Positions 50,402-59,251 of a stretch of 64,000 bases of DNA are shown piece after piece. Numbering within the stretch: the stretch's first letter is position 1; each line of letters begins with the position of its first letter. The stretch is taken from NCBI RefSeq assembly GCF_027247405.1, contig NZ_CP097463.1, positions 1,178,001 to 1,242,000 of the forward strand, read 5' to 3'. This DNA comes from Jatrophihabitans cynanchi (lineage in GTDB: Bacteria; Actinomycetota; Actinomycetes; Mycobacteriales; Jatrophihabitantaceae). Both the position numbers and the translations under genes were made by a program. The notes beneath the pieces were generated by a model. That model ran no database searches, was not told the origin of the DNA, and saw only the letters and a list, made by a program, of their open reading frames with translations.

Positions 50402-51628
50402 TCATTTCGTCAGCCGGCTTCGTCGATGCTGGATCACGCGACGTAGCTTGCTCACCTGGCCGCGATCGAAGGGAAGCGCATCGAGTTCGGGAAGCCAGCG
50501 GTCGGCACGATCCGTCAGGTCGATCAGAGCTCGGCGCGTCGCTCGTTCCGGCACACCGAGAGCAGTGCCCAAGGCGACGAAGTCGCGGGCTCTGAAGTCG
50601 GAGCCTGCTCGGCCGCTGAGTGACATCGCCATGGTCGAGTCGCCGTACACTTGCGAGCACGGCACGTCGTAGACCGGCGACACTCGCCATTCCCCCGATT
50701 GGTCCTGCAGGACGGAGAAGTTCTTCGCATGAGCGTCGCCGTTCCCGGTCAGGTACGCGAAGGCCAGCTGGCGGATCAGCTCGCGGCCGGCCAGCACCGG
50801 CGCATCGCATACAGCGGTCAGCGCGGCGAAGGTCCGGTCCGTGCCAAGCAGGTACTTGTCCGCCGGCGGACGATCGGCGACCTGACAACCGTCCTCGACT
50901 GCGAGCGCACGCAGCTCACCGTCGACGGTGATCCGATCGAACCGACGCACCAGCAGTCCCGACGCGCCGTCGCGATCGACGACGAGATCGTGCGGCGGAA
51001 CGGTCAGTCCCGACGCTCGGGCGGCGCCGAGGAAGAACGCTTCGTTCTCAACGAGCTTCGGGTAGTCGTTGGTCGGATTCAGCTTCAGGATGAACCGCTC
51101 TCCGGCGCGGGCGACCGGGAGGTTGATCATCGCGGCGCTGGTCTTGTCCTGCACGCCGGGCAATGCCATTCGCTGCGCACGGATGCCGAGCTCAGTCAAC
51201 AGGTCGGCGAAACTCGCGTCGCCGATCTCGTCGATCGCAATCCGCGGCGGCACCTCCGCCGGGCTGACACCCGCGGGTACAACCTGGACGTCACCAATGG
51301 CGTCCGCACCGACCGCGAGCAATAGGGAGAGCTCATCGTCAGCGGAAGTCTTGACTGCCCGTCTCAGCACTCGCAGCCGGCGTCCTTCAGGTAGCAGTCC
51401 AGCGAAGTAGGACGGTAGTGCGCCGGCGGGGCGAAGTACGGGCTCGGCACGCACCGGCAAGGTTGTCGCCACTGCCGCGCCGCCGCCGGCAATCCACTCA
51501 TCGAGGTAGCCGAACTCAAGCCCATCCGCGGTCCTGGTCAGGGTCGCGGCGCGATCGCCGCACTTGTAGACGTCGGCTTGCTGGACGTCTCGAAGGTGCT
51601 CGAGCCTGTCGTCGGCGGGCCCGGTCAT
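50402..51628 (-). CDS. hipA: HipA-family serine/threonine kinase toxin
   Basis: A 408-residue HipA-like kinase. E. coli HipA phosphorylates glutamyl-tRNA synthetase and causes dormancy; the target here is unknown. The N-terminal lobe has the couple-HipA region (FAGLLPEGRRLRVL) and AIGDVQVVP. LPGVQDKTS is the Gly/Ser-rich ATP loop, GNGDAHAKNFSV the catalytic loop with its Asp and Asn, and SPVYDVPC the metal-binding Asp. All key motifs are intact, so it is probably active. ATG at 51628 overlaps the hipB stop (ATGA). Confidence 0.92.
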   Translation of the reverse strand: MTGPADDRLEHLRDVQQADVYKCGDRAATLTRTADGLEFGYLDEWIAGGGAAVATTLPVRAEPVLRPAGALPSYFAGLLPEGRRLRVLRRAVKTSADDELSLLLAVGADAIGDVQVVPAGVSPAEVPPRIAIDEIGDASFADLLTELGIRAQRMALPGVQDKTSAAMINLPVARAGERFILKLNPTNDYPKLVENEAFFLGAARASGLTVPPHDLVVDRDGASGLLVRRFDRITVDGELRALAVEDGCQVADRPPADKYLLGTDRTFAALTAVCDAPVLAGRELIRQLAFAYLTGNGDAHAKNFSVLQDQSGEWRVSPVYDVPCSQVYGDSTMAMSLSGRAGSDFRARDFVALGTALGVPERATRRALIDLTDRADRWLPELDALPFDRGQVSKLRRVIQHRRSRLTK

Positions 51629-51852
51629 CGGATCTCGGAATCGGCACCGCGATGGAGCTCCAAGTGCAACCCCAACGCGTTGAGGACGGCGAGCACCTTG
51701 TCCAGCTGTACGGTCTGCTTGCCGTTCTCCAATGCATAGACGAACCGCTCCGACACCCCAGCGAGGTCGGCAAGCTCTTCCTGTCGCAGGCGCAGCTGAG
51801 TTCGGCGAGCGCGAACCTCCCCGGCCAGGCTGCTGACATCTTCTGCCACCAT
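51625..51852 (-). CDS. hipB: HipB-like XRE-family antitoxin/repressor
   Basis: A 75-residue DNA-binding antitoxin with a Cro/C1 helix-turn-helix: RRTQLRLRQEELADLAGVSE, then FVYALENGKQTVQLDKVLAV. It would bind HipA and repress the operon. ATG at 51852 is chosen because GGAGA precedes it and the operator at 51865 lies just upstream; an ATG at 51903 would translate that operator. It is coupled to hipA by ATGA. Confidence 0.9.
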   Translation of the reverse strand: MVAEDVSSLAGEVRARRTQLRLRQEELADLAGVSERFVYALENGKQTVQLDKVLAVLNALGLHLELHRGADSEIR

Positions 51853-51864
51853 GGTCTCCGTCCG

Positions 51865-52002
51865 CCGTACGTACGTGCGGCCAAGGTCGAGAATAGCTGC
51901 CATCCGCGGAGGCCGCTGCCAATTTCCGCACGTTCATGCGGCGAAACATCTGCGCGCGACACTGGGCGACCCATCGAGCGCGCAAACCGTTCGTACGTGC
52001 GG
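51865..52002. promoter_or_regulatory. Three evenly spaced 16-bp HipB-type operators
   Basis: Three related imperfect palindromes precede hipB: CCGTACGTACGTGCGG (51865-51880), CCGCACGTTCATGCGG (51926-51941) and CCGTTCGTACGTGCGG (51987-52002). The shared half-site is CCGCACGT/ACGTGCGG. Their centres are exactly 61 bases apart in both intervals, about six DNA turns, so repressor dimers on all three would face the same side. E. coli hipBA also has several operators, though with a different sequence. Confidence 0.72.
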
Positions 52003-52043
52003 CCAGCGTATCGGACCGATCGCCTGGGTTGTCTCGTGTCTTG

Positions 52044-52200
52044 CTAGTGCCCCGCGCCGTTGATTCGTCTACGAAGTCGTCCGCGTGAGTCGAGGATCTG
52101 TTCGCCCGGCTTGGTCCAGACGAACGGTTTCGGGTTCTCGTTCCAGGCCTTGACCCGGGCGCGGATGTCGCGTTCGAGGCTTGGACCGAGGCGGTGGTCG
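52044..52200 (-). mobile_element. IS630-family transposase C-terminal fragment
   Basis: The minus-strand frame ends with LERDIRARVKAWNENPKPFV followed by WTKPGEQILDSRGRLRRRIN and a stop at 52044. This is the highly conserved C-terminus of IS630-type transposases (WNENPKPFVWTK). The DDE catalytic region is absent, so the element is dead. It marks an old insertion or recombination point just upstream of the Wadjet operon. The remainder of 52201-52434 contains no gene. Confidence 0.75.
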
Positions 52201-52422
52201 CTCGTCTGGATACGGCGAGCCCGGTGCCGCGCTGCCGACTCCCGACACCGCCGTTCGACGCGCCGTAGGCTGTACTCGGCGACAACGATCTTCACTGTCA
52301 TCCGCACCTGATATCTCGTACGAATTACACGGAAGAAGGTTGCGCCCTCACGTGAGGCCGCCGTCGCGGTGTTGGACGCGGCGGCGATGGCGCGGCCTGT
52401 CGAGTCTGTCGGTGGACTCGCC

Positions 52423-52434
52423 TAGCCTGTCGCT
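52423..52434 (+). promoter_or_regulatory. Possible leaderless promoter of the jet operon
   Basis: TAGCCT (52423-52428) is a fair actinobacterial -10 and lies six bases before the GTG of the first jet gene. There is no Shine-Dalgarno sequence, so the mRNA may begin at the start codon. A clear -35 is not seen. Confidence 0.35.
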
Positions 52435-53931
52435 GTGGAATCTGCAGGCGCACCGGACGCAGGGCGGCGCCGCGATCTGTTCCGCTACCTGACAGCTGAG
52501 GAGTCGGACGATTACCTGGCGGTCATGGATCTGTTCGCCGCCACCCTGCTGACCGATCTGTCAGCCACGGAGGTCGCCGCCCAGCTCGCCGATCGCGGTC
52601 GCGTGCTCGAGCGTGATGTCGCCGAGGCCCGCTGCCGCCAGCTCGTCGAGTGGGGCAATCTCGTGCCGTCGATCCGCGATGCCCGGGTCAGCTCCGTCGC
52701 CGAGTACATCCGCTCGCGATCGCGGTACCAGGTGTCCAAACTCGGCGGTCGCGTGCACCGTGACGCTGTCGAGATCCTGCAGGCCACCGACGGCGCACGT
52801 GAGGTCGCCCGGGAGCTGCTCGGCCAGATCGTGCAGTCCCTCGATCGGATCATCGCCCAACTGACGCGCGCCGATATCGACGTTGACGCGCTGGCCGGCG
52901 AGGTCACCACGGTGTTCGGCAACCAAAGGGTGTTCACCGACAGCGTCCGCGACTTCTACGCCTACCTCGCCGGTATCCTCACCCGCTACGACCTCGGCGG
53001 CGAGGAGTACGCGCAGTTCAAGGAGCTGCTGCTCGTCTACATCGACCTCATCACCGCCGACGTCAACCGGCACGCGCCGGCCGTGTCCGGTCGCGTCCGG
53101 CAGGTCATCAGCCGGCTCGACGCGCTGCTGGCAACCCTCGCGGGCCTCCCCGGCCTGGTCCTGCCCGACGGCACGCCGATCGAGCGGGCGCGGGGACGCA
53201 CCCGAGCCGACTGGTCCGAGCTCGCGTCCTGGTACGACGCCGAGCACGGCCGGTCCGGCCCCGAGCAACTGCGCACCGCCGCGGCCCAGGCCCTCAGCCA
53301 GCTGATCACCAACGCCAAGCGGCTGCTCGATTCGTCCGGTACTGGTTTCTCGCGCCGAGCCGACTTCCTGCGACTGGCCCGCTGGTTCCACGCCGCGACC
53401 GACGACGACGCGCACCGGCTGTACGCGGCGACCTTCGGCGCCTACCCGGCGCGGCACCTGCTGTTCGGGCCGGACGAGCCGGACCCGCGGATCGGGCCGA
53501 CGACGTCGTGGTGGAACGCCGACCCGGTCCAGGTGCCGGTGTCACTGCGCGAGCGCGGCGACCGCGCGTTGCGCGGCAAGACGTCGCGGGTCCCCGACCC
53601 GACCGCCGACCGGCGGCGGCTGATCGCCGAGGCCCGGCGCGAGGCCGACCAACGTCGAGCGGCCGCGTCCGAGCTGGCGATCACCGGCGCGCTGCACGGC
53701 GCCGCCATCTCCCCGGCCGCCCGTGACCTGCTGCTCGACCTGCTCGGCGATTTGCTCACCCGCGGCGACGCCGAGACCGTCGACCACGACCTGGGCCTCC
53801 GGCTGACCGCCGCACCCGGTCCGGACACGGTGATCTCGAGCGCGGATGGCACCACCACCGTGTACGGCCACCGCCTGGTCATCGAGGGCATCGCAGCCTG
53901 GTCCACCGTCGACGACGAGGCGGTGCCATGA
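52435..53931 (+). CDS. jetA: Wadjet component JetA (DUF2397/TIGR02677)
   Basis: A 498-residue protein of the DUF2397 family, recognised by its start (RRRDLFRYLTAEESDDYLAVMDLF) and by its position as first of four coupled genes. In Wadjet it is the kleisin-like subunit that links the SMC heads. The complex recognises and cuts closed circular DNA such as plasmids. The middle part is strongly helical. The end overlaps jetB (ATGA). I believe this DUF2397-2398-2399 version is the subtype called Wadjet type III. Confidence 0.9.
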   Translation: MESAGAPDAGRRRDLFRYLTAEESDDYLAVMDLFAATLLTDLSATEVAAQLADRGRVLERDVAEARCRQLVEWGNLVPSIRDARVSSVAEYIRSRSRYQVSKLGGRVHRDAVEILQATDGAREVARELLGQIVQSLDRIIAQLTRADIDVDALAGEVTTVFGNQRVFTDSVRDFYAYLAGILTRYDLGGEEYAQFKELLLVYIDLITADVNRHAPAVSGRVRQVISRLDALLATLAGLPGLVLPDGTPIERARGRTRADWSELASWYDAEHGRSGPEQLRTAAAQALSQLITNAKRLLDSSGTGFSRRADFLRLARWFHAATDDDAHRLYAATFGAYPARHLLFGPDEPDPRIGPTTSWWNADPVQVPVSLRERGDRALRGKTSRVPDPTADRRRLIAEARREADQRRAAASELAITGALHGAAISPAARDLLLDLLGDLLTRGDAETVDHDLGLRLTAAPGPDTVISSADGTTTVYGHRLVIEGIAAWSTVDDEAVP

Positions 53932-55127
53932 GCATCGTCGCCACCGCCGGTCTCGACGCGGGCGAGCGGCGGATCGCCGCCCGGCACCTGATGTCGTCAC
54001 CGATCCTGACCGCCGCGCGACAGCCGGGCGAGCTCGACCTCGTCCGCCGGCACGCCTCCGCGCTCAAGTCGATGTTCGCCACCCAGCTCGGCTACGCGCT
54101 CGTCGTCGAGTCCAGCTTCGCCCGGCTGGTCAAGGCGCCACTACCCGCATCCGCCCCGGTGCGCCCGGCCCGCCGCCCCACTGACGGCGCCGCGTTCACG
54201 CCGAACACCTACGTCCACCTCGCCCTTGTGTGCGCGGCGCTGCTCGCGCCCGGCGTCGGCGAGCAAATCCTGATCTCGGCCCTCGTCGACCAGATCCGCG
54301 CCGACGCCGCCGAACAGGCGATCACGATCACCGACGGGCTCAGCGACCGCCGCCAGCTGGTCACCACACTGAGCCTGCTCGCCGGCTGGGGCGCGATCAG
54401 CGAGACCGACGGGTCGCTCACCGCCTGGGGCGAGCGGCGCGAGGACGAAGCGCTGCTCACCGTCAACCGCGCGCTGCTCCTTCACCTGCTGCCCCATCGA
54501 CTGCACGAGTACGACGAGCCCGACGCCACCTGGACGCGGCCCGAGCTCGACAACCCGCGGCGGCGGTTGAGGCGGCGCCTCGTCGAGAGCCCCGCGGTCT
54601 TCCGGGCCGAGCTGCCGGCCGACGAGCTGGATGTCCTTTCCCGCGAGCGGCACGACCTGGCCAAGCACCTGGACGAGAACTTCGGGCTCGTGCTCGAGGT
54701 GCGGGCCGAGGGAGCGCTGGCCTACGACCCGGCCGGTGGGCTCACCGACGTCGACTTCCCCGGCAGCGGCAGCGCGAAGCAGGCCGCGCTGCTGCTGCTC
54801 GACGAACTTGTCGTCGCGCTGCAGCCGACTGCGGAGTCGACGGTGACGATTGGCGATCAGGTGCTGCCGGGGGTGATGGCGCCGTGGCCGCAGGTCGACG
54901 CCGTTCTCGCCGGCCTGACCTCCCGCTACCGCACGATGTGGAAGAACGCCTACGTCGAGTCCGGCGACGTGCTCCGTGCCGACGCCGTCGAGCTGCTGAC
55001 GTCGCTGCGGCTCGCGGCGGGCACCGACGACGGGTTGGCGATCTTCCCGTTCGCCGCGCGCTACCAACCCCAGGTCACGACCCGTCCGGCCGTGCAGGGA
55101 TCGCTGTTCGAGGGAGATCCGCCATGA
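53928..55127 (+). CDS. jetB: Wadjet component JetB (DUF2398/TIGR02678)
   Basis: A 399-residue protein of the DUF2398 family, containing the typical YVHLALVCAALL and REPRGLPGR-region equivalents in a helical, winged-helix-rich chain. JetB is the KITE-like subunit binding the kleisin. ATG at 53928 overlaps jetA's stop and its own stop overlaps jetC (ATGA). Confidence 0.9.
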   Translation: MSIVATAGLDAGERRIAARHLMSSPILTAARQPGELDLVRRHASALKSMFATQLGYALVVESSFARLVKAPLPASAPVRPARRPTDGAAFTPNTYVHLALVCAALLAPGVGEQILISALVDQIRADAAEQAITITDGLSDRRQLVTTLSLLAGWGAISETDGSLTAWGERREDEALLTVNRALLLHLLPHRLHEYDEPDATWTRPELDNPRRRLRRRLVESPAVFRAELPADELDVLSRERHDLAKHLDENFGLVLEVRAEGALAYDPAGGLTDVDFPGSGSAKQAALLLLDELVVALQPTAESTVTIGDQVLPGVMAPWPQVDAVLAGLTSRYRTMWKNAYVESGDVLRADAVELLTSLRLAAGTDDGLAIFPFAARYQPQVTTRPAVQGSLFEGDPP

Positions 55128-58100
55128 CCCGGCCCGCCGCCCCGCGCCGCTTCGACGAGCGCTGGCGCCTGTCCCGCGCCGGCATCGTCAACGTGTGGCA
55201 CTACCTCGACAACGAGTTCGACGTCAGTGGCGGGCGGATGATCCTGCGCGGGACGAACGGATCCGGAAAGTCCCGCGCGCTGGAGATGCTGCTCCCGTTC
55301 CTGCTCGACGCCGACCGCCGCAAGATGGACGCCACCGGCGCCGCCCGGGTCAACCTGGACGAGCTGATGCGCACCGGGGCCCGCGAGCAGGCGAACCGGA
55401 CCGGGTACCTCTGGCTCGAGCTCGCCCGCCCCGGTGAGTACCTGACGGTCGGCGCGTTGGTTCGGCACAGCCGGTCCGCGAGCAGCACGAAGGTCTGGTA
55501 CTTCACGACGCCGCTGCGCGTGGGTGACGAGCTGGCCCTGCTCTCCGACACGCGCGAACCGCTGTCCCGCGATGCGCTGACCGAGCTGGTCGGGGTCGAG
55601 CGAATCACCGACTCGGCGGCCGTGCATCGCGATCGCGTCCGGGTCGAGGTGTTCGGCCTCGACGGCGACACCGGGCGGGACCGCTACGACGGGCTGCTGC
55701 AGCTGCTACACACGCTGCGGGCACCGGACGTAGGCAACCGGATCGACGAGGGGCGGCTGCCGCAGATCCTGGTCGACTCGCTGCCCCCGCTGCACGAGCA
55801 GGCGCTGACCCGGGCCGGCGAGCAGCTCGACGGCCTCACCGAGACCCGCGCGGCGCAGGAACGCCTGGAGCAGTCCGCGGCCCAGGTCTCGTCCTTCCTG
55901 GCGGTGTACGAACGCTATGCCGCGGCGACGTTGCGGGCCACCGCCCACGAAGCGGTCGCGGCAGCCGATGCCGTCGTCGCGGCCGAACGCGCAGCGGCCG
56001 ACCGGGCCCGTCAGGTCGCCGCCCTTGACGCTAAGTACGGGCAGTTGCAGTCGCGCGAACAGGAACTGTCCGAAGGGCTCGCCGAGCTCGACCACGCCCT
56101 CCGCGCGATCGAAGCCCGGGAGATCTTCAAGACGGCCGACGACCTCGTCCAGCGGGATCGCGCCGTCGCGGCACTCGCTCGATCAGCCGATCAAGCTCTG
56201 GCCGGCGCCGAGCGGGAGCGGGCCAACCATCGCCGCACCGTCGACGATGCCGAGCAGGCGCTGGCTGAGGTGCGGCAGGCCGCAGCCGACGCGGCGACCG
56301 TCCTCGCGTCCACCCGCGAGGCCGTGCAGGACGCTCGCCTGCCGGCCGGCCGACTGCCCGACGACGTCCGGGCGGTCGATCGGCCATCGGCCGCCGCGTC
56401 CGTCGTGCTGCGGGTGACTCGTGACGGCGAGGCGCAGGCAATCGCCCGCCCGTTCGCCGCGCACGTCGACGTCGTCCCGGCCGACCTCGACGAAGCCCGG
56501 CAGGCGGCCGAGTCGGCCCGCTCCGGCGCAACCGACCGGCAAGGCCTCGCCGGACGGCGCTTAGCCGAAGCCCGGCGGCTGGCCAAGACCGAGGAAGCGA
56601 TCGCGCGGCTCGCGGCCGAGGCGGATCGGCTCGCCAACGCCGCCGAGCTCGACGCGCAGGCCGCCGACGACCGCGCCACCGAGCGGGACGCCATCGCCGC
56701 CGAACTCGCCCACGCCTGGCGAGCGTGGACCAGCGACCCCACCGCCGCCGAGCTGCTCGGCCCGATCAACTGGGTCGAGCACCCGCTGATCGGTGCGTTG
56801 CTGCTCGACGCCAACGCCCTGGCCGGCCACCGCACCGACCCCCTCGATGACCTCGACGAGGTCGCCGAGGCCGCCGCCCGCCCGGCGCGAGCAGCGGTCG
56901 ATGCCGAACGGGCGCGGCTCGCCACCGAAGAGAGCAACGACCGTGACCGGGAGCAGACCCTGCAGGCCGAGCGGGCCGAGCTCGCCGCCGCACACGACCC
57001 GCTTCCGACCGACCCGCCCTGGCTCACCCCGGACCGTCCGGGTGAGCCGCTGTGGCGCTGCATCGACTTCGGCCCCGACGTGCCGGCTGCGGCGCAGGCA
57101 GGTCTCGAGGGCGCGCTGCTCGCGTCCGGGCTGTTGACTGCAGTGATCACGGCCGACGGTGCCGTCCGCGCGGCTGACGGCGAACTGCTGGTCAGCGCCG
57201 GCTCGGCGCGCGCGGCGCGTCCGCTGAGCACAATCCTCCGCCCCGACTCCGCCGCCACGCTCCCCGCCGCGACGATCTCAGCCGTCCTGTCCAGCATCGG
57301 CGTCGACGACCCCGCCGCCGCAACCTCGGTATCGACCGACGGCAGCTGGCGCAACGGACCGCTGCGCGGCCGGCACCGCGTCGACCGCGCACGCCACATC
57401 GGCGCGGCCGCCCGGGCGGCCCATCGGCAGGAGCGGATCGCGGCGATCGACGGCGACCTGACCGTTCTGGTCGACCTCGCCGGCCGGCGCGCACGGCGGC
57501 GGACGGAGCTCAACGAGACCGACCGACGCCTCGCGGACCTCGTACGCGCCGCGCCGCGAAGTTCGCGGCTCTACGCCGCCCGCCGCCTGGCCACCGACGC
57601 AGTGAGCCGGGCCGAACGCAGCAGCGCCGAGGCCTCGCGGGCCGCCGCCGCGGCCCGCGAGGCTCGCGCGTCCTGGGTCGCGCAGGTCGACGCGCACCGC
57701 AGCGTCTGCCTGCACCACGACCTGCCGGTCGAGGCCGACGCGCTTCAGCAGGCCGTGGATGCCGCCCGCCACGCAGCCGAGCGCAGCGCGCAGCTCATTC
57801 GCGAGCTCACCCGGCTCGCCGAAGCAGTGACGCGACACGACGCCCGGCTCGCGCGCGCCGACGCGGCCGCCGGCGTGCGCGACGATGCCGAGCGCGACGC
57901 GGACGATCGGTGGGCCGAGTGGCACGCCGCGGCCAGCGAGCTCGCTGCCCAGCATCAAGCGCTCGACCTCTCGATCGAGCAGGCCCGCGACGAGCTCGAG
58001 CGCACGCAGCGGGCCCGGGACACGACCGAGGCCGATCACCGCGCCGCGCTCAAGGCGGTGGCCGACATCGGCCCGCAGCTCGGTGAGGCACGCATGGCCG

Positions 58101-59251
58101 CGGAGAATGCATCCGCACACGTCCTCGCCGAGGTCGAGCAGCTGGTCTCCGCAGCGCACCGATTGACTCGGCGGATCGCGCTGCCCGGGCTGGCCGCGGC
58201 CGCGACCACCGGACGGCTCGCCGGCATCGTCCACCCCGAGCAGGTGGACGAGGTCCGCGCCGGAGCGGTCGCTGTCCTGGACGCCGTCGCCGAGCCCCGC
58301 CAACCCGCGTCCGCGTCTCGGGTCTTCGACGCCTTCCGCGAGTTCGACCGTGAGGTGTCCGGCCAGCTCGACGCCCGGCACTGGCTCGACGACGACGTGC
58401 ACCTGGTCGAGATCGCCGGCGCCGGCGACGAACACACCCTGGCCGGCGCCGCCCGCCTGCTGGCAGCGCGAGTCGAGCAGGGCCGCGCCGCGCTCAGCGA
58501 GCGCGAACGCGAGGTGTTCACCCGCTTCGTCCTCGGCGGGGTCGCCGAGGAACTCCGGCGTCGCGTCAACCAGGCCGGCCAGCTCATTGCCGCGATGAAC
58601 ACCAGCCTGGGCGGGATCACCACCACCAACGGCATCGGCGTCAAACTCGGCTGGGGGCTGCGCGAGGAGCACGCGGCGCTCGGCCGGGTGCTCGAACTGG
58701 TCGCCACCTCCGACGCCGTCCGATCCGAGGCCCAGAACGCCGAGCTGACCGAGTTGCTGCGCAAGCGCGTCGAACTGCACTACGCCGCGGACCCGAGCAG
58801 CGGCTACGCCAGCCATCTTGCGGCGGCTCTCGACTACCGCACCTGGCACGAGGTGAGCGTGACGATCCTGGGACCGGACGCCGGCCAGCAGCGGCGACTG
58901 TCCCGGCGAGCCAAGCTCTCCCAGGGTGAGACCCGGTTCGTCTCCTACGTCACGCTGTTCGCTGCCGCCGACGGCTACCTGACCAGCCTTGGCGACGACA
59001 GCCGGGCGTTGCGGTTGATCCTGCTCGACGACGCGTTCGCGAAGGTCGACGACACCACCGTCGCCGAGCTCATGGGTCTGTTGGTCACGCTCGATCTGGA
59101 CTTCGTGATGACCGGCCACGCGCTGTGGGGCTGCTTCCCGCAGGTTCCCGCGCTCGACGTGTACGAGGTCCGGCGCAGCGACGGCAGCTCGGCGGTGACC
59201 ACGCACGTGCACTGGGACGGCCGCAACCGCCACCTGCGCAGCACGGCATGA
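55124..59251 (+). CDS. jetC: Wadjet SMC-like ATPase JetC (TIGR02680)
   Basis: A 1375-residue SMC/Rad50-like motor. Walker A GTNGSGKS is at residues 43-50. The ABC signature is LSQGE at about 1265-1269, and Walker B LILLDDAF lies at about 1298-1305, with a switch His in MTGHALWG. Between them about 1,000 residues of Ala/Arg/Glu-rich coiled coil form the arms, with a hinge-like break around the GINWVEHPLIGALLLDANAL area. It would extrude DNA loops until JetD cleaves. ATG at 55124 overlaps jetB; the much longer upstream frame is only open by GC bias. Confidence 0.94.
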   Translation: MTRPAAPRRFDERWRLSRAGIVNVWHYLDNEFDVSGGRMILRGTNGSGKSRALEMLLPFLLDADRRKMDATGAARVNLDELMRTGAREQANRTGYLWLELARPGEYLTVGALVRHSRSASSTKVWYFTTPLRVGDELALLSDTREPLSRDALTELVGVERITDSAAVHRDRVRVEVFGLDGDTGRDRYDGLLQLLHTLRAPDVGNRIDEGRLPQILVDSLPPLHEQALTRAGEQLDGLTETRAAQERLEQSAAQVSSFLAVYERYAAATLRATAHEAVAAADAVVAAERAAADRARQVAALDAKYGQLQSREQELSEGLAELDHALRAIEAREIFKTADDLVQRDRAVAALARSADQALAGAERERANHRRTVDDAEQALAEVRQAAADAATVLASTREAVQDARLPAGRLPDDVRAVDRPSAAASVVLRVTRDGEAQAIARPFAAHVDVVPADLDEARQAAESARSGATDRQGLAGRRLAEARRLAKTEEAIARLAAEADRLANAAELDAQAADDRATERDAIAAELAHAWRAWTSDPTAAELLGPINWVEHPLIGALLLDANALAGHRTDPLDDLDEVAEAAARPARAAVDAERARLATEESNDRDREQTLQAERAELAAAHDPLPTDPPWLTPDRPGEPLWRCIDFGPDVPAAAQAGLEGALLASGLLTAVITADGAVRAADGELLVSAGSARAARPLSTILRPDSAATLPAATISAVLSSIGVDDPAAATSVSTDGSWRNGPLRGRHRVDRARHIGAAARAAHRQERIAAIDGDLTVLVDLAGRRARRRTELNETDRRLADLVRAAPRSSRLYAARRLATDAVSRAERSSAEASRAAAAAREARASWVAQVDAHRSVCLHHDLPVEADALQQAVDAARHAAERSAQLIRELTRLAEAVTRHDARLARADAAAGVRDDAERDADDRWAEWHAAASELAAQHQALDLSIEQARDELERTQRARDTTEADHRAALKAVADIGPQLGEARMAAENASAHVLAEVEQLVSAAHRLTRRIALPGLAAAATTGRLAGIVHPEQVDEVRAGAVAVLDAVAEPRQPASASRVFDAFREFDREVSGQLDARHWLDDDVHLVEIAGAGDEHTLAGAARLLAARVEQGRAALSEREREVFTRFVLGGVAEELRRRVNQAGQLIAAMNTSLGGITTTNGIGVKLGWGLREEHAALGRVLELVATSDAVRSEAQNAELTELLRKRVELHYAADPSSGYASHLAAALDYRTWHEVSVTILGPDAGQQRRLSRRAKLSQGETRFVSYVTLFAAADGYLTSLGDDSRALRLILLDDAFAKVDDTTVAELMGLLVTLDLDFVMTGHALWGCFPQVPALDVYEVRRSDGSSAVTTHVHWDGRNRHLRSTA

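Follow-up and report, generated by a model that had tools for sequence, protein, structure and literature searches.

The window, a stretch of 64,000 nucleotides from Jatrophihabitans cynanchi (contig NZ_CP097463.1, positions 1,178,001 to 1,242,000), contains a predicted hipBA operon with a set of palindromic sites in front of it (Table 1). A small helix-turn-helix (HTH) gene of the Cro/C1 type lies upstream of a hipA-like gene and overlaps it by 4 bp, and the HipA product carries an N-terminal Couple_hipA domain and a C-terminal kinase domain. The original prediction had placed a HipB-like gene downstream of the sites, and an HTH_3 match (E 2e-11) agrees with this. In the predicted HipB, residues 35-42, including Arg36, Phe37 and Tyr39, would form the recognition helix. 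The longest hipB frame begins at 51903 and runs through operator 1; we prefer the ATG at 51852 as the start, which would place operator 1 just upstream of the gene, its near edge 12 bp from that codon.

Table 1 Predicted genes and operator sites of the hipBA locus and its neighbors (window coordinates)
Feature	Position	Strand	Basis or remark
hipA-like Ser/Thr kinase toxin gene, 408 aa	50402..51628	-	HipA_C E 1e-43, Couple_hipA E 2e-19
hipB-like antitoxin/repressor gene, 75 aa	51625..51852	-	HTH_3; start codon inferred
Operator 1 (proximal), CCGTACGTACGTGCGG	51865..51880	.	pattern match, palindrome search, counterparts in orthologues
Spacer of operators 1/2, 45 bp	51881..51925	.	
Operator 2 (middle), CCGCACGTTCATGCGG	51926..51941	.	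centre 61 bp from operator 1
Spacer of operators 2/3, 45 bp	51942..51986	.	
Operator 3 (distal), CCGTTCGTACGTGCGG	51987..52002	.	centre 61 bp from operator 2
IS630-like frame, 87 aa	52044..52307	-	matches to transposase annotations
Genes matching JetA2, JetB2 and JetC2	52435..59251	+	PADLOC

We re-examined the claim that three 16-bp sites of the pattern CCG-Y-W-CGT-W-C-R-TGCGG recur here at an exact 61-bp period. All three matched the pattern with 0 mismatches, their centres were found again at 51872.5, 51933.5 and 51994.5, and both intervals measured 61 bp. The sites depart from a single palindrome, CCGCACGNNCGTGCGG, at 1, 1 and 2 places, respectively. Nowhere else in the genome (4,515,412 bases) is the pattern matched without a mismatch. 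With up to 2 mismatches, the genome held 69 forward and 53 reverse matches, compared with 70 and 74 for a reversed control pattern; because near matches were no commoner than those of the control, nothing suggested that HipB has a wider regulon in this genome, and that idea was dropped. When the 450 bp surrounding the sites were searched for three similar 16-bp palindromes without regard to spacing, the top set scored 74.2, and none of 2000 dinucleotide shuffles of the same 450 bp reached this value (maximum 65.0). Judged from their sequence and arrangement, the three sites upstream of Jatrophihabitans hipB are very probably HipB operators. The letters of the E. coli-type TATCC-N8-GGATA operator are absent from all three, which instead resemble CCGCACGNNCGTGCGG.

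The predicted kinase has the fold and the catalytic residues of a HipA. Full-length HipA structures match the fold of the window HipA with Z 30.9-33.6, the catalytic loop GNGDxHxKN is retained, and D298, H300, K302, N303 and D321 are conserved without exception across the aligned family and also in E. coli HipA. The autophosphorylated serine that adjoins the Gly-rich loop in E. coli HipA (Ser150 column) is absent from the window HipA, which has Ala155 at this place, and Ala155 is nearly invariant among 12 aligned HipA sequences. Because alanine takes the place of Ser150, the Ser150-type autophosphorylation switch is probably absent from this HipA family. Since some HipA-homologous kinases, the HipG group, are reported to lack that serine (PMC8262856), Ala155 would mark a subfamily and the assignment to hipBA stands. 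One scan of viral contigs found no relative of the window HipA.

Two further features lie upstream of the array. Just past operator 3, a frame matching IS630-family transposase annotations on actinobacterial plasmids (45.9-70% identity among the matches listed) looks like the remnant of an IS630 transposase. Beyond the operators, genes match JetA2, JetB2 and JetC2 (E 3e-186, 6e-103 and 0); by these profile matches they are a predicted Wadjet-type defence operon, so that hipBA adjoins a defence system.

We analyzed the conservation of the array in relatives of the window HipA. Searches with this protein gave a match in 19 of 298 genomes of the order at E 1e-20 and in 30 of 394 genomes of the class at E 1e-40, and from GTDB contigs the best 80 of at least 537 HipA-related stretches were used. 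The matches listed, which favour Actinobacteria, yielded 129 loci, 117 of them with a HipB match adjoining hipA. The 12 loci with no HipB match next to hipA were left out (L045 at 59% HipA identity, the other 11 at ≤34%), as were three duplicates (L108, L109 and L116), leaving 114 loci; setting aside 10 loci with HipA at ≤35% identity gave 104 core loci (HipA 39-100%). The core loci included no near-identical pairs (97%), and the interval counts were unchanged by this check. We then scanned the 450 bp preceding the HTH-coding part of each hipB for the highest-scoring triple and pair of similar, even 16-bp palindromes at any interval of 18-140 bp, with 100 dinucleotide shuffles per locus as the control, and each significant set of sites was extended with its own weight matrix.

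In 94 of the 114 loci the best triple scored above every one of the 100 shuffles, and in 100 loci the best pair did. Significant sites, as triple or pair, were present in 95 of the 104 core loci and were not found by the blind search in the other nine; the expectation that motif and spacing should recur upstream of hipB orthologues thus held. Every one of these 95 core loci had at least one interval of 48-52, 59-62 or 70-73 bp (the 5-, 6- and 7-turn classes), and 70 had at least three sites so linked. The closest orthologue among the matches listed, L009 (HipA 76%), carries three such sites 60 bp apart, L028 and L029 (HipA 68%) carry three variant sites 60 and 61 bp apart, and L110 (HipA 64%) carries three perfect sites 62 bp apart. 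When the 14 loci missed by the blind search, these nine and five of the new loci described below, were retested with the spacing fixed at 59-62 bp, triples beat all 60 shuffles in eight (L015, L035, L039, L049, L102, L140, L143 and L156), L111 and L113 were marginal, and L019, L089, L138 and L145 failed against the same 60 shuffles. The recognition helix of L035, identical to L150, is a different one (ARTSVAALEAG), and its 60/61 triple is weak; this locus may have an operator of another design. The contig of L030 is titled Acidobacteria bacterium, and the locus is identical over 887 bp to L139, a locus from the window's own phylum; the phylum in the title looks wrong, and because of this conflict we claim no spread over phyla from contig titles.

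The spacing in these relatives followed a rule. Taking as strong those sites that scored at least 0.8 of the matrix maximum, a cut set after weaker extra sites had been seen, we obtained 147 intervals between strong neighbors in the core loci: 123 at 59-62 bp, 20 at 70-72 bp, two at 50-51 bp and two at 122 bp, which is twice 61. By single lengths there were one each at 50 and 51 bp, 3 at 59, 74 at 60, 41 at 61 and 5 at 62 bp, and in the longer class 5 at 70, 9 at 71 and 6 at 72 bp. Weaker extra sites at other distances are also present in the relatives. Control triples sought inside hipA gave only 4 of 228 intervals at 59-62 bp. By this sequence comparison the 61-bp period is a rule of this HipBA family and is not particular to the window locus. 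On a HipA tree of 86 rows, from which 9 of the 95 rows were left out as shorter than 250 residues, the spacing class changes four times, each time by about one turn; with so few changes, the one-turn rule rests on few independent events. The operator spacing is very probably kept in steps of about one helical turn. The original prediction of a six-turn phasing stood in part: where strong sites leave the 59-62 bp range, they do so by roughly one turn of the helix, but with 10.5 bp per turn an interval of 61 bp amounts to 5.8 turns and not exactly 6.

Additional sites were seen at some loci. A fourth site lies at 60-62 bp in L046, L047 and L152 and at 72 bp in L018 and L112. Among the loci with HipA at ≤35% identity, palindromic sites are 26 bp apart in L124-L126, 37 bp apart in L129 and L131 and 38 bp apart in L021; every HipA branch may have its own pitch.

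We next compared the letters of the operators with the residues of the adjacent HipB. The loci were grouped into 53 clusters (70% HipA identity, single linkage), and HipB residues 18-50 were scored against the 8 half-site positions, giving 264 pairs with 300 permutations per score. The strongest covariation joined residue 39 with position -7 (z 18.5), followed by 37 with -3 (16.4) and 36 with -6 (15.9); in the AlphaFold model of HipB (mean pLDDT 88), residues 35-42 form the third helix. Where HipB has Arg36, the operators carry G at -6 (47 cluster votes, with a mean share that rounds to 1.00); the lowest share seen was 0.83, in L117. At -7, Arg39 goes with G (share 0.94, 29 votes), His39 with T (0.74, 16 votes), Tyr39 with C (0.69, 3 votes), Gln39 with C (2 votes) and Leu39 with T (2 votes), and Gly39 and Ser39 stand with a mixture of bases. 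With Phe37, position -3 is C or T and position -2 is G. Exceptions are the Thr37-His39 loci (e.g. L066, L070 and L087), which are mixed at -7, L038, where Arg39 stands with A, and L028, where Tyr39 stands with T. Because the permutations ignore the tree, other high-scoring pairs, such as 45 and 49 with -3, may reflect clade structure. After tree correction, residue 39 and position -7 left 4 independent pairs on well-supported branches (6 on all), of which 2.8 ran in the same direction, 0 in the opposite direction and the rest neutral (median p 0.25), and residue 36 and position -6 left 2 pairs (3 on all), both in the same direction (p 0.5); these numbers are too few to reach significance, and none of them contradicts the code. 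E. coli HipB differs from the window HipB at all three of residues 36, 37 and 39. The suggestion of a distinct HipB specificity therefore gained ground, since the sites are without the TATCC-N8-GGATA letters and the operator letters covary with these three residues.

Expected spacings and letters were written down before 19 further loci were inspected. Two of these, L139 (identical to L030) and L150 (identical to L035), had already been seen and were left out, leaving 17 new distinct loci. The array was detected in 12 of the 17, and all 23 strong intervals fell at 60-62 bp (2, 18 and 3 at 60, 61 and 62 bp, respectively). The letters agreed with the code for Arg36 and G (11 of 11), Arg39 and G (11 of 11) and Phe37 and G at -2 (10 of 10). 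With L139 and L150 included, arrays were found in 13 of 19 loci and 24 of 24 strong intervals agreed. The sole new locus with His39 was L139, so the pairing of His39 with T gained no independent case. L141 has Lys36 with C at -6, a combination outside the prediction. The blind search found no significant sites in the remaining five new loci (L138, L140, L143, L145 and L156), of which L145 has a HipA of only 33% identity.

The closest published case is the Legionella HipBST system, in which three evenly spaced inverted-repeat operators, O1-O3, lie upstream of hipB and the gel shift of each fragment by HipB requires its operator (PMC10653801). The window has an array of this type, three equally spaced inverted repeats upstream of hipB, to which HipB binding is predicted here. 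The gaps of 53 bp between 18-nt sites reported for Legionella (PMC10653801) sum, by our own calculation, to a period of about 71 bp, which resembles the 70-72 class of the relatives, whereas 60-61 bp is usual here. Legionella HipBST divides its kinase between HipS and HipT; in the window a single 408-aa HipA holds both domains. HipB(Lp) is also the best sequence match to the window HipB among solved structures (E 9e-8) and leads the fold list (Z 11.0, rmsd 3.9, 70 aligned), within 1 of Shewanella HipB (Z 10.7). The folds of the Shewanella oneidensis HipBA structures (PDB 4pu3 and 4pu4, titled as complexes of HipA, HipB and operator DNA) match those of the window proteins (HipB Z 9.7-10.7, HipA Z 30.9-32.0), with aligned parts 22-29% identical.

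Like the window, E. coli K-12 hipBA has several palindromic HipB operators upstream of hipB-hipA; in MG1655 four sites have centre spacings of 28, 39 and 28 bp. The E. coli system differs in its operator letters, and the window HipB and HipA are 25% and 28% identical to those of E. coli. E. coli HipB is reported to bind its four palindromic operators cooperatively and to bend the DNA by 70 degrees, with HipA flanking the HipB dimer and acting as corepressor (PMC3920265). In E. coli HipBST, the HipB dimer is described as separating two HipST units, and HipB alone can repress (PMC10627512).

The sites, their period, its conservation, the stepwise deviations and the covariation with the recognition helix were computed here. 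We consider it likely that the sites are autoregulatory hipBA operators bound by HipB, with the 61-bp interval acting as a ruler for cooperative repression. Each site would be bound by one HipB dimer through both arms of the palindrome, Arg36 being matched to G at -6 of the half-site and Tyr39 to C at -7. By analogy with known HipBA biology, HipB, probably with HipA on both flanks, would occupy all three sites and the operon would be repressed, HipA acting as corepressor. At 5.8 turns per interval, the three HipBA complexes would sit on nearly one face of the DNA. Held in one rotational setting, neighboring complexes would touch or bridge and thereby bind cooperatively, either through short loops of about 45 bp or by packing side by side. 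HipA molecules of neighboring HipBA complexes may be in contact, and such side-by-side contact would demand the same spacing as looping. If one rotational setting is required, only changes of about one helical turn would be tolerated. Contact between bound complexes is the likely reason for the kept spacing. The available text of the Legionella report counts against cooperative repression, in that its authors raise intermediate occupancy and contrast it with the cooperativity of E. coli (PMC10653801).

A less probable reading, to which we give perhaps a minor share of belief, is that HipB binds independent operators and that 61 bp merely fits the sites around a promoter and a start codon, with no contact between complexes. 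Indeed, in 55 of 95 loci the distance between the proximal centre and the first in-frame start codon that follows is 18-26 bp. A sigma-70 consensus scan of 51600-52450 found no promoter in the window, and in the relatives -10-like hexamers are modestly enriched downstream of the centre of the next site: TAnnnT lies at +26 from the centre of the upstream partner in 10 of 75 loci and at +38 in 7 of 75, against a mean of 1.08 per offset. As the modest excess falls in the interval equivalent to the operator 1/2 spacer, the core promoter may sit between the two proximal operators. However, independent binding leaves unexplained why the distal interval, farther from the start, is equally 60-61 bp, and why strong sites deviate by about one helical turn.

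We regard it as very improbable that the period was left behind by a 61-bp tandem duplication or reflects recent common ancestry and owes nothing to selection. A duplication would initially give equal intervals and alike sites, and the spacing class is clustered on the tree; the spacers, however, are at background identity. Between loci the median identity was 0.30 against 0.28 when shuffled (75 loci with a 60/61-bp interval, 2775 pairs), the two spacers of one locus shared 0.29 against 0.27 when shuffled (n = 61), and in the window the inner parts of both spacers are 17% identical. Background identity between and within loci means that neither ancestry nor duplication explains the period; the interval persists all the same, so the spacing has outlived the sequence. 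In most of the relatives examined the spacing is the same or is shifted by about one turn although the remaining control DNA has diverged, which suggests that the repressor complex holds a physical ruler.

We attach just as little weight to the possibility that a regulator other than HipB binds the sites or that they are part of the upstream IS630 remnant. HipB binding is itself a prediction and a transposase fragment does adjoin the array, but the operator letters track the recognition helix of the adjacent HipB across the 53 clusters and in the out-of-sample loci. A chance repeat can practically be dismissed: GC-rich DNA is rich in imperfect palindromes and the window holds the pattern at chance level with up to 3 mismatches (16 matches against 17.7 expected), but no shuffle matched the score of the triple and the arrangement recurs in relatives. 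Shuffles, spacer identity and covariation thus leave chance, duplication, recent ancestry and a foreign regulator as unlikely explanations.

The excerpts of open-licence PMC literature surveyed, which lie outside the primary E. coli and Shewanella HipBA-DNA papers, contained the Legionella array as the only evenly spaced HipB array, and no 60/61-bp hipBA array, one-turn steps or residue-base code. The available text of the Legionella report covers one genus and proposes neither one-turn steps nor such a code (PMC10653801). Relative to these sources, the idea of an array was known in one genus; the present analysis adds that the array extends across single-chain hipBA and that its interval changes by single turns while the spacers drift, and it adds the code.

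More tentatively, HipA2B2 may form a three-unit assembly on DNA with a protein-determined pitch (about 61 bp, give or take one turn), in which the array would act as a scaffold that silences the operon and gathers six kinases, possibly inactive; HipB specificity would then evolve through residues 36, 37 and 39 with the geometry fixed.

E. coli hipBA is the textbook persistence module, and the present results indicate that its operator layout is not representative of the hipBA family. A broad, mainly actinobacterial branch keeps an array in which the interval is fixed to about one helical turn as the spacer letters drift, and this combination makes a geometry imposed by the protein directly testable. 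The covariation between HipB residues and operator bases provides a partial code by which operators may be predicted from the HipB sequence.
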